Shown: piece by piece, positions 11,271 through 24,623 of the stretch
Layout: each line of letters opens with the position of its first letter
Numbering within the stretch: position 1 is the stretch's first letter
Origin: Rouxiella sp. S1S-2
GTDB lineage: Bacteria > Pseudomonadota > Gammaproteobacteria > Enterobacterales > Enterobacteriaceae
Length of the DNA stretch: 64,000 nt
Reading direction: 5' to 3'
Assembly (NCBI RefSeq): GCF_009208105.1
Contig: NZ_WFKL01000001.1
Span: 930,001 to 994,000, forward strand
Translations under genes and position numbers: made by a program
The notes under the pieces: generated by a model
The model's input: the letters and a program-made list of their open reading frames with translations, nothing else
Told to the model about the DNA's origin: nothing
The model's database searches: none

Positions 11271-12125
11271 CTAACGCCGTCCTGCGCTGCCGCAGATACG
11301 GATTTTCTCGGCCACCACCGCCTTCATCGCCTGTTTACCGGGAACGATGTATTTGCGCGGATCGTTGGCATCAGGATGTTGATTAAAATACCCTTTAACC
11401 GCATCGGCGAAGGCAATTTTTAGCTCGGTGGCAACGTTGACTTTGCATATGCCCAGTGCGATGGCGCGTTTCACCATCGCTTCCGGGATCCCCGAGGCGC
11501 CGTGCAGCACCAGCGGAATATCAACCTGCTGGCGGATTTTCTCCAGACGATCGAAATCCAGCTTTGGTTCTCCCTGATACAGCCCGTGTGCCGATCCTAT
11601 GGCCACCGCCAGCGAGTCAATGCCGGTGACTTCGACAAACTCACGCGCCGCCAGCGGATCGGTAAAGAAGCTGTCGGCCGAATCTACAACTAGATCATCC
11701 TCCTGTCCGCCGAGCCTGCCTAGCTCGGCTTCCACGCTGGCACCGTAGCGATGACACAGTTTTACTGCCTGTAAAACCAATTCAATATTTTGTCTAAACG
11801 GCAGGTGTGAACCGTCGATCATTACCGACAGGATCCCCTGATGAACCTTGTTTTCAATGTCATTCATCTCTTCGTGGTGATCGAGATGCAGCGCCAGTGG
11901 CAGATTGTAGCGGCGCGCGGCCGCCTGGCAGATCTCCACCAGATAATCGGTACCTGCATAGCTAAAGGTGCCCGGCGTGCCGGCCATAATCACCGGCGAC
12001 TCCATTTCGGCGGCGGTTTCGGCAACCACCTGTACCGTCTCGAGATTGTGGACGTTGAACGCCGGAACCGCATAGCCTTCGCGCTGCGCTTTGTTAAGCA
12101 TTTCGCGGTTAGAGACTAAATACAT
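11271..12125 (-). CDS. kbaY: Tagatose-1,6-bisphosphate aldolase, catalytic subunit
   Basis: A class II zinc aldolase that splits tagatose-1,6-bisphosphate into dihydroxyacetone phosphate and glyceraldehyde-3-phosphate. The 284-residue product has the family length. Zinc ligands lie in LALHLDHHE (81-85 for LDHHE), GSAHG and LVLHGASGI, and the phosphate-binding segment is KVNVATELK. The ATG at 12125 ([10 protein letters not shown]) is chosen over an upstream in-frame codon because GGGAG precedes it. It follows agaS by 34 bp in the order kbaZ-agaS-kbaY. GatY of galactitol catabolism is nearly indistinguishable; the agaS/agaR context favours KbaY. Confidence 0.9.
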
Positions 12126-12159
12126 AGAAACTCCCTGTGTTGGCAATGTTAAAGCAAAA

Positions 12160-13344
12160 CTAAAGCGCTGAGGCGCTGGCCTGATCCACCGGCTTTGAAT
12201 AGTGATAAATCGTGACTCCTTTCACCACGCGGTTAACCTCGCCGGTCGGGCAAGGATTATCCGGCGTCAGGCCGTGGGCCAGCGAGGTTTCCATTGCCAA
12301 CATCTGTGCAAAAAGTAGGTAGGGGAACATCATCCACACATCATCGCCTTCGTGATGCAATGTTTGCACGTCGGGCACGGTATCGGCTTCGCCGCTCAGA
12401 CCGACCATTTGCTGCACCAGTCCGTCACGCTTGAGCTCGTGCCACAGGTCAACGTCGTACTGACGCGCATAGCTGTCGCTGGAAAACATCATCAGCACCA
12501 GCGTCCTGTCGTCGACCATAAATTTTGGTCCGTGGCGAAGACCCAGCGGTGAGTCATAGCGGGTGACAATGCGACCGGCGGTAAGCTCCAGCATTTTCAA
12601 CGAGGCTTCTTCCGCCAAACCGGTAAAGCAGCTGCCGCCTAGGGTGATGTAGCGGCTGAAACCGCTGTTGGCCAGTTTTTTCACCTGCGGCTGCAGGCTT
12701 TCGCGCAGCAGATAGCAGCTTTCGACCATTGCATTCAGTTGTGGATAGGCTTCGCTGAGCGACTGTGGCCCCAGCAGCAGCGCCGCACTGAGCATCATGC
12801 AGCTGAAGCTGGAGGTCATGGCAAAGCTTTGGTCGTTGGAGCCTTCCGGCATTACCACTGCCAGCACGTTGTCGCGGCCTTCTGCATATTGCGCCAACTG
12901 ACTGTCCGGGTTACACACCAGCATCAGGTGATAGCACTCCGGCACCAGTTGGTCTGCCAGCGCCACGCTGGCCACACTTTCAGGACTGTTGCCCGAGCGG
13001 GCAAACGACACCAGCAGGGTGGGGCGCGAGCGGTCGAGATACTGATGCGGATTGGCAACAATATCCGTGGTGCCATAGGCTACTACGTCACGGCCAGTTT
13101 GCTGGCGCAGCCATGGCGCTAGCGCACGACCGGCAAAGGCGGAACTGCCTGCGCCGCAGAGCACAATTTGCAGACGTGGGTCGGCCAGCAGCGGTTGCAA
13201 AAAGGGCTGCCACTGTCCGCTGTCGTGGGTTAGCTGCTGATGCAGGCGACGCCACATGTCCGGCTGCTGCCATATTTCGCGGGCGGTGTGCAGGGCGTTG
13301 TGCTGATCCAGCCAGTCGGTGCTGTAGGAAAAATAGTGGCTCAT
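12160..13344 (-). CDS. agaS: AgaS: SIS-domain galactosamine-6-phosphate deaminase/isomerase
   Basis: Converts galactosamine-6-phosphate to tagatose-6-phosphate and ammonia. The 394-residue protein has two SIS domains, with the sugar-phosphate pocket motifs [12 protein letters not shown] and [13 protein letters not shown] in the first and [20 protein letters not shown] and [12 protein letters not shown] in the second. Its ATG overlaps the stop of kbaZ by four bases (ATGA), so translation is probably coupled, and GGAG lies in the end of kbaZ. Together with kbaZ and kbaY it defines the lower half of the amino-galactose pathway. Confidence 0.92.
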
Positions 13345-22469: not shown

Positions 22470-22955
22470 TGACATCCCCTTGGTCGTTCGAAAAATAAAC
22501 ATTTACGTAACGTGCATTCTTTCTATCCCCTAAATTTCGGTGTGTCAATATCACTACTTTTGCCCTAAATCAGTGCGGATTGCTTTCGATGTTGTTAAAA
22601 TCGAAAGGTTAAAAGCGAAAGATGAAAGCTGTTTTCCTTGTAACTTTTCGATAACATTTACCGGCGCTTCTCCTGACGGCAAGCGGTGTCGGGGCTGTAC
22701 TGTCGAGGCCTGGCGGGCAGAAACCCTGCACTACAACGGGGAATAGAAAAGCTTTTATTGTGCATCCAGATAAATCTTTCATTTTTGTGATGTAAATAAA
22801 CAAAAAAAAACGGCTTTCGTTCGTTTTAGGTGAGTGACTGTCGCGGTCCAACATTATCAATGAGATCTCCTCTCATCTTGCATATTGTATATTTAATAAA
22901 AAGGTGTCAGGTTTAATCATCATCTCTTTTAATTGTCGATGCGAGTCTACCTATT
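22470..22955. promoter_or_regulatory. Divergent control region, binding-protein operon / GH123 gene
   Basis: A 486-bp interval between divergent genes. CTTTCG or CGAAAG occurs at 22583, 22602, 22616 and 22814; the pair at 22602 and 22616 is spaced 14 bp, and the copy at 22814 reads CTTTCGTTCGTTTTAGG. The same hexamer is enriched upstream of agaR. This indicates joint control of importer, glycosidase and lower pathway by AgaR. An AT-rich tract (22870-22905) before the GH123 gene may hold its promoter. Confidence 0.6.
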
Positions 22956-24623
22956 ATGCTGCTATCAATATCCTTCACTCATAGCTTGGAAAAAATATTT
23001 CATCAAAAAATATTGCCCGCGTTTACTCCCCTCCATCACCTTTCACTTTTAAAAAATGAAAGTCTTTCTTTTCAGTGTGTCTATTGTCTGAGTAAAGAGG
23101 ACGATGAGCCGCGCAGGCAATTACGCTATGAGCTTGATAGTCCGCTGTCTGAATATATCCAGGTGCGCCAGGTACGTCATGTTCCCAGTCTTTTTCCTTG
23201 TTACGCAACGACCGATGACGATTATCTCACCACCGAACCCGGATTATTCCCCGACCCACTGATGCCGCTGAAGAATAATACATTCTTTGTTAACGGTAAT
23301 TATTACGGCAGCCTGTGGCTGACGCTAATGCCCGCAAAAGAAAGCCTGCCTGTCGGTACATTCAGTTTGAACTTGCGGGTTATTGACGTGGCCACTGAGC
23401 AGGTTTTGGCAGAAAAAGCGGTGGAAATCGAAATTTTGCCTTGTGCTTTACCGCCACAAAAGCTGCTTCATACCGAATGGCTGCACGCCGACTGTCTTGC
23501 TGACGTTTATCACATTGAGGTGTTTAGCGAGGTTTGGTGGCGGACGATCGAAAATTTTGTGCGCTGCGCGGTAAAAAATGGCGTCAATATGATCCTCACG
23601 CCGGTTTTCACGCCGCCGCTGGACACGGCAATTGGCGGCGAACGCACCACGGTGCAGCTGGTGGGGGTCAAGCAGGATGCTGGTGGAGTCTATCATTTTG
23701 ATTTCAACAGGCTTGAAAGGTGGGTTTCGCTGTGCCAGCAGTTGGGGATCACGACCTTTGAAATTTCTCATCTCTTTACCCAATGGGGCGCACACCACGC
23801 GCCAAAAATTTTAATCGAAACTGAGGGAGAGCTGCGTCAGGTATTTGGCTGGCACACGGATGCCCACGGCGCTGAATATCGTGATTTTCTGCACGCCTTT
23901 TTGCCCACGCTGTGTGAATTCTTGCGTCATAAAGGGTTGGAAAAGAACGCCTGGTTCCACGTCTCCGATGAGCCAAAAATGGCAGATATTGAGGCATATC
24001 GTCGCGCTAATAATCTTATCCGCCCGCTGATCGCTGGTTTTCCGGTACTCGATGCACTGTCAGACTATGAATTTTATCAACAAGGGCTGGTAGAAAATCC
24101 GGTCACCGCCAGTGACCATATAGAACCGTTTTTGAGCAATAAGGTGCCTAATTTATGGACCTATTACTGCTGTGTTCAGAAACTGGCAGTCGCTAACCGA
24201 TTCTTTGCCATGCCGTCTTATCGCAACCGAATTTTGGGCGTACAGCTTTACCTTTATTCGATAAGCGGGTTTTTACACTGGGGATTCAACTTCTATAACA
24301 GCGGACATTCGTTGGAACACCTCGATCCTTTCGCTATCACCGACGGGCAGGGCGCTTTCCCTTCGGGCGATCTGTTCGTGGTCTATCCGGGTGAAGACTA
24401 TCAGCCGATTGAGTCACTGCGTTTACTGGTGTTGCGCGAGGCGCTGCAGGACCTGCGCGCACTGCAGTTACTCGAAACGCTAACCAGCCGGGAAGCGGTT
24501 GAAGCGTTAATCGATAATCTGGCGGGTATGCACATTACTTTTAAGCAGTATCCCCGCCAGGCCGAGTTTTTGCTGACGCTCAGAGAGCAAGTCAACCAAC
24601 AGATAATTCTGGCCTCCGTTTGA
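22956..24623 (+). CDS. GH123-like (DUF4091) glycosidase, probable beta-N-acetylgalactosaminidase
   Basis: A 555-residue protein with a beta-sandwich N-terminal part (about 1-165) and a TIM-barrel catalytic part carrying the DUF4091 pattern: TEWLHADCLADVY (173-185), VNMILTPVFTPPLDT (210-224), GGERTTVQLV, SHLFTQWGAHHAPKI and WFHVSDEP (333-340). GH123 enzymes use adjacent Asp-Glu residues, here Asp338-Glu339, for substrate-assisted hydrolysis of beta-GalNAc linkages. There is no signal peptide, so hydrolysis would occur in the cytoplasm after ABC import. It is divergent from the importer operon and shares its control region. The ribosome-binding site is weak. Family is likely; exact linkage specificity is inferred from agaS-kbaYZ and the kinase. 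Confidence 0.8.
   Translation: MLLSISFTHSLEKIFHQKILPAFTPLHHLSLLKNESLSFQCVYCLSKEDDEPRRQLRYELDSPLSEYIQVRQVRHVPSLFPCYATTDDDYLTTEPGLFPDPLMPLKNNTFFVNGNYYGSLWLTLMPAKESLPVGTFSLNLRVIDVATEQVLAEKAVEIEILPCALPPQKLLHTEWLHADCLADVYHIEVFSEVWWRTIENFVRCAVKNGVNMILTPVFTPPLDTAIGGERTTVQLVGVKQDAGGVYHFDFNRLERWVSLCQQLGITTFEISHLFTQWGAHHAPKILIETEGELRQVFGWHTDAHGAEYRDFLHAFLPTLCEFLRHKGLEKNAWFHVSDEPKMADIEAYRRANNLIRPLIAGFPVLDALSDYEFYQQGLVENPVTASDHIEPFLSNKVPNLWTYYCCVQKLAVANRFFAMPSYRNRILGVQLYLYSISGFLHWGFNFYNSGHSLEHLDPFAITDGQGAFPSGDLFVVYPGEDYQPIESLRLLVLREALQDLRALQLLETLTSREAVEALIDNLAGMHITFKQYPRQAEFLLTLREQVNQQIILASV

Follow-up and report, generated by a model that had tools for sequence, protein, structure and literature searches.

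A predicted PTS-free route for N-acetylgalactosamine use in Rouxiella, combining an ABC importer, a GH123 glycosidase and aga genes

We analyzed a 64,000-nucleotide stretch of the Rouxiella sp. S1S-2 genome (contig NZ_WFKL01000001.1, positions 930,001 to 994,000 of the forward strand; hereafter, the window) and found that an island of 11 genes, at positions 11271 to 24623 of the window, likely encodes a branch of the Aga pathway for N-acetylgalactosamine (GalNAc) that operates without the phosphotransferase system (PTS). In this scenario, an ATP-binding cassette (ABC) transporter would import a β-GalNAc glycoside, a glycosidase of family GH123 would cut it inside the cell, and the catabolism would proceed through AgaS and KbaYZ. 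All the genes named in the original prediction, which was made from the sequence alone, are present in the island, and each of the 11 proteins scores above a Pfam gathering cut-off; the island also includes agaR, which the title of that prediction left out. Whole-glycoside import by the ABC transporter followed by intracellular trimming of β-GalNAc, as proposed there, appears to account best for the sequence and its relatives.

The predicted β-N-acetylgalactosaminidase of the Group 4 type, a member of GH123 (DUF4091), is encoded on the plus strand (22956..24623) and matches PF13320 with 371.1 bits (cut-off, 23.1), with the catalytic domain spanning residues 175-506; no NCBIfam model matched this protein. 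The Asp-Glu pair noted in the original prediction is D338-E339, the catalytic pair of the enzyme. The nearest solved chain is 8k2l (E 1.7e-161), followed by 8k2n (E 1.7e-130); both are named monosaccharide-releasing β-N-acetylgalactosaminidases. Presumably, 8k2l is NgaP2 of PMC11087588, since the residue numbers given there for NgaP2 fit the chain with a shift of 3; that 8k2n is NgaLy is a guess. In the 8k2l alignment, read by eye with this shift, the NgaP2 contacts W196, D244, D297, W298 and F489 correspond to W175, D223, Q276, W277 and F468 of the window protein. The residue given in the paper as D297 is Gln in the 8k2l chain and in the window protein alike, so that D297 may be a misprint or the shift of 3 may break there. 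All these window residues, along with D338 and E339, are invariant in 25 of 25 aligned GH123 sequences, that is, the window protein and 24 relatives hand-picked out of 120 listed. According to Table 1 of PMC11087588, the four Group 4 enzymes all cleave GalNAc-β-p-nitrophenyl (pNP), whereas the relative activity on GlcNAc-β-pNP is below 0.5% for three of them and 4.7% for one, and none exceeds 0.5% on GalNAc-α-pNP. No signal peptide is recognizable by eye at the N-terminus of the GH123 protein, and the binding protein has one. Given the lack of a signal peptide and the proximity to Group 4 with its residues retained, the GH123 protein most likely acts on β-GalNAc ends in the cytoplasm.

The GH123 gene is transcribed opposite to the importer operon, from which it is separated by a common 453-base region. 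The operon, on the minus strand and with short gaps, consists, in order, of the genes for a sugar-binding protein (21189..22502; PF01547, signal peptide by eye), a MalF-type permease (20125..21144; PF00528, 55.2 bits against a cut-off of 26.4), a MalG-type permease (19239..20114; PF00528), a MalK/UgpC-type ATPase (18064..19185; NF008653, 453.3 bits against a cut-off of 432), a Gfo/Idh/MocA NAD-binding protein (16720..18036; PF01408 and PF22725; hereafter, Gfo) and a ROK sugar kinase, predicted to be a GalNAc or N-acetylhexosamine (HexNAc) 6-kinase (15803..16702; PF00480, with DIGGTK, EWGH and CxCGxxGCxE motifs). A binding protein, two permeases and a MalK-like ATPase with the OB and TOBE domains make up an importer of the MalFGK (CUT1) type. 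A 342-base region sets the ROK gene apart from a second minus-strand group consisting, in order, of agaR, encoding a DeoR-family repressor (14690..15460; NF040755, 376.1 bits against a cut-off of 260; 45% identity to Escherichia coli K-12 AgaR), kbaZ, encoding the non-catalytic subunit of tagatose-bisphosphate aldolase (13341..14639; TIGR02810, 674.8 against 568.8 bits; 55% to K-12 KbaZ), agaS, of the galactosamine-6-phosphate deaminase/isomerase family (12160..13344; TIGR02815, 537.4 against 529.2 bits; 42% to K-12 AgaS), and kbaY, for the catalytic subunit of a KbaY-type tagatose-1,6-bisphosphate aldolase (11271..12146; TIGR01858, 487.6 against 443.6 bits; 59% to K-12 KbaY). The end of kbaZ and the start of agaS overlap by 4 bases.

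The NCBIfam scan covered 10 of the 11 island proteins (the MalG-type permease was left out), and the cut-offs were exceeded by KbaY, AgaS (by a narrow margin), KbaZ, AgaR and MalK. ROK, Gfo, the MalF-type permease and the binding protein matched models only below cut-off: the top model for ROK was N-acetylglucosamine kinase (288 bits, under its cut-off of 380), and the UgpA, GlcT and MalF models fell short for the permease. Two of the listed frames are probably too long. The kbaY frame opens at TTG, and its real start is probably an internal ATG near 12125; the malF frame opens at GTG, with an internal ATG near 21099 as the probable start, both judged by eye. Relatives of the MalF-type permease are 311-358 amino acids long.

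To assess the conservation of the island, contigs were scanned for GH123 loci, and the best 80 of a larger number were kept. Eight of these resemble the window, with GH123 proteins 56-80% identical to that of the window, and the remaining 72 are at 51% or below. Six of the eight are informative (loci L010 and L013 to L017), and the other two, which are short contigs, display just two genes of the set, GH123 and that for the binding protein. The original prediction had suggested searching genomes for the same gene set, and this search was fruitful: the genes for the binding protein, MalF, MalG, MalK, ROK, AgaR and GH123 occur together in the same order in all six informative relatives. Thus, the gene order is not due to chance because it recurs in other species. 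GH123 adjoins the binding-protein gene in all eight window-like loci, and an orthologous Gfo gene is present in four of the six informative ones; in Pantoea, Gfo is represented only by a 25% identical relative at a different place. Locus L013 comes from a contig deposited as Chryseobacterium sp. 18061, where the locus genes are 73-93% identical to those of the enterobacterial island; this assembly is probably mislabelled or mixed.

Two of these relatives strongly favour the GalNAc assignment, as judged from their gene arrangement. In Pantoea AS-PWVM4, the genes for the importer, ROK, AgaR and GH123 adjoin an E. coli-type agaR and a kbaZ-deacetylase-agaS-kbaY run; no PTS genes were found beside the module in this aga cluster, and the sole mannose-family enzyme IIC (EIIC) gene of the genome is manY. 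The deacetylase, which we call agaA by its place, passes the nagA model and is 69% identical to the product of a gene in the aga cluster of E. coli R32_14_1F (record name nagA; the strain is hereafter R32). In Serratia nevei, the only agaS above the cut-off sits in the GH123 locus, where kbaZ was not found, and a different contig carries agaVWEF, kbaZ and agaR; therefore, one agaS would serve both import routes. The spacer between agaA and agaS in Pantoea AS-PWVM4 contains a 48-base tandem repeat (locus L123, 5934-6485) in 11.5 copies with 94% matches, which is open in frame on both strands.

The absence of PTS genes from the island, another element of the original prediction, was borne out, and neither an AgaPTS nor a GamPTS was found in the genome by a search that covered the mannose family and no other PTS family. 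The single mannose-family EIIC (EII-Sor) of the whole genome is manY of manXYZ, which, for the family searched, rules out a GalNAc PTS hidden elsewhere. The same holds for Rouxiella badensis and Serratia sp. M24T3, in which manY is likewise the sole mannose-family EIIC. The island AgaS is the only one in the genome above the TIGR02815 cut-off. A NagA above its cut-off is encoded at another site, next to nagB- and nagC-like genes, and one gene of the phosphofructokinase (PFK) family is present elsewhere in the genome. A second NagA-like gene (201 bits, below cut-off) lies near position 3721820 of contig C1, together with genes that, by eye, encode a ROK-type regulator, a NagB/AgaI-like deaminase and a partial symporter-like protein.

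Under the proposed mechanism, the binding protein and the MalFGK-type importer would bring in a small glycoside ending in β-GalNAc, and GH123 would release GalNAc in the cytoplasm. The ROK kinase would convert GalNAc to GalNAc-6-phosphate, from which NagA, encoded elsewhere, would strip the acetyl group; AgaS would then yield tagatose-6-phosphate, a phosphofructokinase encoded elsewhere would add the second phosphate, and KbaYZ would split the bisphosphate into triose phosphates. AgaR would act as the repressor of both operons and of GH123. We infer all the reactions, the transport specificity and the regulation from features that are directly observed: gene content and order, protein families, the GH123 active-site residues, manXYZ as the only mannose-family PTS, and conservation across species. 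The original prediction had the ROK kinase feeding AgaS and KbaYZ, and this route is supported as a whole; the direct transfer from ROK to AgaS is wrong because AgaS has been proposed to act on galactosamine-6-phosphate (Hu 2013, PMC3668189), so that a deacetylation is needed in between. That study proposed agaS as the gene for galactosamine-6-phosphate deaminase/isomerase, and reported that E. coli nagA can stand in for agaA; hence, the missing deacetylase in the island does not sink the pathway.

The two intergenic control regions of the island point to common regulation. The word CTTTCG, which we take to belong to the E. coli AgaR consensus, occurs nine times in these regions, whereas the remainder of the window predicts 0.43 occurrences. 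Five sites lie in the control region of agaR-kbaZ-agaS-kbaY (15461..15802), a count matched by none of 2000 shuffles, and four in the divergent region between the importer operon and GH123 (22503..22955), matched by 1 of 2000. When the regions between the binding-protein and GH123 genes of seven loci were pooled, 15 CTTTCG sites were found, whereas 500 shuffles averaged 1.8 and never exceeded 8. Furthermore, two to four sites lie in each of the agaR-ROK regions of L010, L016, L013 and L015 (0-14 of 500 shuffles gave as many), and four lie between agaR and kbaZ in E. coli R32 (0 of 500); no enrichment was detected in the garD-IIB and agaR2-agaR regions of the same strain or in both Pantoea aga regions. 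Because the word was picked after both control regions had been inspected, and the counts are accordingly not blind, they support but do not prove a single AgaR regulon that would take in GH123. Promoter and terminator scans returned signals no more often than expected by chance.

Several observations weigh against this interpretation. No deacetylase, tagatose-6-phosphate kinase or outer-membrane pore is encoded in the island itself; AgaS exceeds its model only narrowly and shares 42% identity with its E. coli counterpart; the mannose family was the sole PTS family searched; and the ligand of the binding protein is not readable from its distant solved relatives. Among the relatives, the Brenneria locus lacks both the Gfo gene and kbaZ, the L013 genome encodes, besides manY, two further mannose-family EIICs of unassigned sugar, and in three of the seven regions between the binding-protein and GH123 genes (L016, L014 and L017) the CTTTCG count is not unusual when taken alone. 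Across the 80 GH123 loci, only five carry both agaS and kbaY, although six of the window-like loci are unable to show these genes together (four are cut by contig edges and two are the short contigs), and 32 carry both malF- and malG-like genes; thus, GH123 works in other settings too. Outside the window-like loci, agaS- and kbaY-like genes occur together with GH123 in 3 of 72 cases. In L080 (filed as Bacillus subtilis) and L082 (Lederbergia), AgaS (40-41% identical to the E. coli protein), KbaY, PfkB and GH123 are clustered, with a Gfo protein about 25% identical, and in L086 (Cohnella pontilimi) the genes for a SIS protein, a DeoR regulator, ROK, KbaY, PfkB and GH123 stand in a row. The SIS protein of L086 scores higher with the GlmD (glucosamine-6-phosphate deaminase) model than with that for AgaS, both below cut-off, which also counts against the scheme. 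These Bacillota-type loci are weak as proof of a conserved module, and the link between GH123, AgaS and KbaY outside the window-like loci appears recurrent but not general.

We weighed three alternatives. The importer could take up free GalNAc, galactosamine or a broad range of sugars, with GH123 acting separately, for example, on recycled glycans. A precedent exists in Shewanella, where a permease and a kinase stand in place of a PTS (PMC2996990), and GH123 is divergently transcribed, outside the importer operon; however, in all eight window-like loci, including the two that show just this pair, GH123 lies beside the binding-protein gene, with a common control region, and, with no signal peptide seen in GH123, the enzyme needs a substrate that is imported into the cell or formed there. 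We consider this alternative unlikely. That the sugar is not related to GalNAc at all, the aga-like genes serving some other aldose, would be in line with the scores of ROK, which exceed only a general family cut-off, and of AgaS, which passes by a small margin, but all the Group 4 residues are present in GH123 and the Pantoea module adjoins the deacetylase gene shared with the E. coli R32 aga cluster; the chance of this being the case seems minimal. An attempt to read the ligand from the solved relatives of the binding protein failed, as these are variously named and the nearest, Lmo0181, scores 121 bits.

Under the third alternative, the main task would fall to Gfo: it would cleave another linkage as an NAD-recycling glycosidase or as a glycoside oxidase, and GH123 would help with β-linked residues. 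In favour of this reading, relatives from distant phyla share about 57-60% identity with Gfo, the closest matches to its predicted fold are YjhC and RgNanOx, with NAD-dependent glycoside hydrolases within the top 20 matches, and on two Deinococcus plasmids Gfo is accompanied by genes for SIS, aldolase, PfkB and GH4 proteins, in one case also by GH114. However, Brenneria lacks the gene, Pantoea has only the distant relative, a fold match of this kind is common to the superfamily (TM-score to the query 0.60-0.67 among the 50 matches listed), and five other plasmid relatives are encoded beside genes without a clear amino-sugar link, so that we regard this alternative as quite improbable.

Import of a β-GalNAc glycoside with GH123 cleavage, our preferred reading, leaves room for a contribution of Gfo, to which the original prediction assigned no role. 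The EKP motif, K202, C204-H205-D206 (in KSCHD), and C243, C246 and C252 (in CLDCRVEATC) are invariant among 33 chosen Gfo sequences. The predicted model (mean pLDDT 86, the confidence score of the prediction) shares 15-17% identity with YjhC and RgNanOx over the fold match, and levoglucosan dehydrogenase ranks close behind, as do the NAD-dependent glycoside hydrolases; YjhC is also the nearest solved relative by sequence. Many further dehydrogenases score almost equally, and any placement of Gfo among the NAD-dependent glycoside hydrolases or hydratases (the RgNanOx, sulfoquinovosidase and GH109 kinds) is tentative. RgNanOx and YjhC have HxxH where the window protein has KxxH. Assignment to GH109 is unsupported, 2ixa being one of many weak sequence matches (E 7.8e-6) and absent among the 50 fold matches listed. 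RgNanOx oxidizes its substrate with NAD and regenerates NAD in the last step (PMC7535918). Given this chemistry and the nearest folds, a redox role of Gfo on a GalNAc glycoside is possible by analogy.

A search at E 1e-90 found the Gfo gene in 1 of 369 genomes of the class, the source genome itself, and a 64% identical relative is present in 1 of 5426 E. coli genomes, that of R32 (from a goat). In this strain, an island between garD and the aga cluster (locus L105, 7976-14969) encodes Gfo together with a ROK protein (49%) and a second AgaR (65% identical to the window AgaR), adjoining an ordinary aga cluster; the import part consists of a chitobiose-type PTS IIC (above the ChbC cut-off) and IIB, with GH4 and ChbG. 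On plasmids, 24 records have a Gfo match, and nine neighborhoods were inspected (H2-H6, H10, H16, H18 and H22), with the gene tables of the collection being incomplete: two include SIS, aldolase and PfkB genes, one (37% identical) SIS and nagA, five have no clear amino-sugar genes, and one is unannotated. The first two are the Deinococcus plasmids, where the Gfo relative (53-56%) follows ABC, BadF kinase, SIS, aldolase, PfkB and GH4 genes. For the SIS protein of one of these (L115), the GlmD model beats the AgaS model, both below cut-off. The L115 operon also contains a GH114-family gene (6780-7619) annotated as endo-α-1,4-polygalactosaminidase, and is a candidate galactosaminan-use operon.

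These arrangements invite a broader conjecture, which is tentative and, in our estimate, has a rather low chance of being correct. Aga would be a shared core with exchangeable import and first-cleavage modules, in Enterobacterales each with an AgaR-type repressor, a ROK protein and usually Gfo: ABC and GH123 in the window, and in R32 a PTS of the chitobiose type together with GH4 and ChbG; the Deinococcus plasmids would combine ABC, GH4 and Gfo with a BadF-type kinase. GalNAc glycosides resistant to the partner hydrolase would be opened or remodelled by Gfo with recycling of NAD, and the two enterobacterial modules would naturally act on a disaccharide of the GalNAc-HexNAc type, for example, LacdiNAc. 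LacdiNAc as the natural substrate is a guess based on the chitobiose-type partner genes and on general glycan biology.

GH123 is a large family, with at least 7,930 matches among 7,999 candidates scored. It is present in five of six genomes of the genus and in 2 of 295 genomes of the order, the source genome included; a DNA search of E. coli genomes gave no matches. Two of 72,556 plasmid records carry GH123, and around the sole annotated plasmid locus no aga genes were found. The G+C content of the window GH123 gene is about 0.45-0.48, compared with up to 0.585 in its island neighbors, and in Rouxiella badensis DSM 100043 (L010) the GH123 protein is 78% identical to that of the window compared with 91-98% for the other island proteins. 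The low conservation and low G+C may reflect faster change or a separate origin.

Descriptions of GalNAc utilization in Enterobacterales usually involve a PTS. Should the proposed scheme hold, some lineages would bring in the intact glycoside and release the sugar within the cell, hiding GalNAc from competitors. The locus would also provide a biological setting for part of the large GH123 family, the natural roles of which were left largely open in the available text of a 2024 paper (PMC11087588), and would link a widespread, unassigned Gfo/Idh/MocA family to amino sugars, which makes its substrate amenable to testing. The original prediction held that this layout had not been described in Enterobacterales, and our literature searches agree: among the open papers listed, none was found in which AgaS or KbaY is discussed together with GH123 or DUF4091, or DUF4091 together with an ABC transporter. 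Thus, the parts are known, and the layout is new for Enterobacterales as far as open papers show.

The island shares AgaR, AgaS, KbaYZ and a CTTTCG-rich agaR-kbaZ region with the E. coli aga/gam system (AgaPTS), in which AgaVWEF takes the place of the ABC import, GH123 and separate kinase seen here; the island also lacks agaA. The Group 4 enzymes NgaP2, NgaLy, NgaBl and NgaBf match the window GH123 in sequence and active-site residues, and none of them is among the proteins listed as signal-peptide-trimmed in the available text of PMC11087588. For NgaBf, however, a gene-neighbor database pointed to periplasmic glycan degradation, unlike the cytoplasmic action proposed here, and the words Pseudomonadota, Proteobacteria and Enterobacter are absent from the main text of that paper as available. 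The Shewanella AgaP-AgaK system likewise takes up the sugar without a PTS and has a separate kinase whose product passes to AgaA and AgaS, but it employs a permease and an outer-membrane transporter, and the available text of the two sources mentions neither an ABC importer nor GH123 (PMC2996990, PMC12118421). A 2017 survey of human gut genomes lists three GalNAc transport systems, AgaPTS, GnbPTS and LnbABC (PMC5583593). As described there, LnbABC-LnbP, for lacto- and galacto-N-biose, resembles the predicted route in ABC import of a GalNAc-containing disaccharide and intracellular cleavage, the latter by a phosphorylase, unlike the hydrolase GH123, whereas GnbPTS-GnbG shares whole-disaccharide uptake, an intracellular hydrolase and GalNAc catabolism with it, but relies on a PTS for import where the Rouxiella island encodes an ABC transporter.

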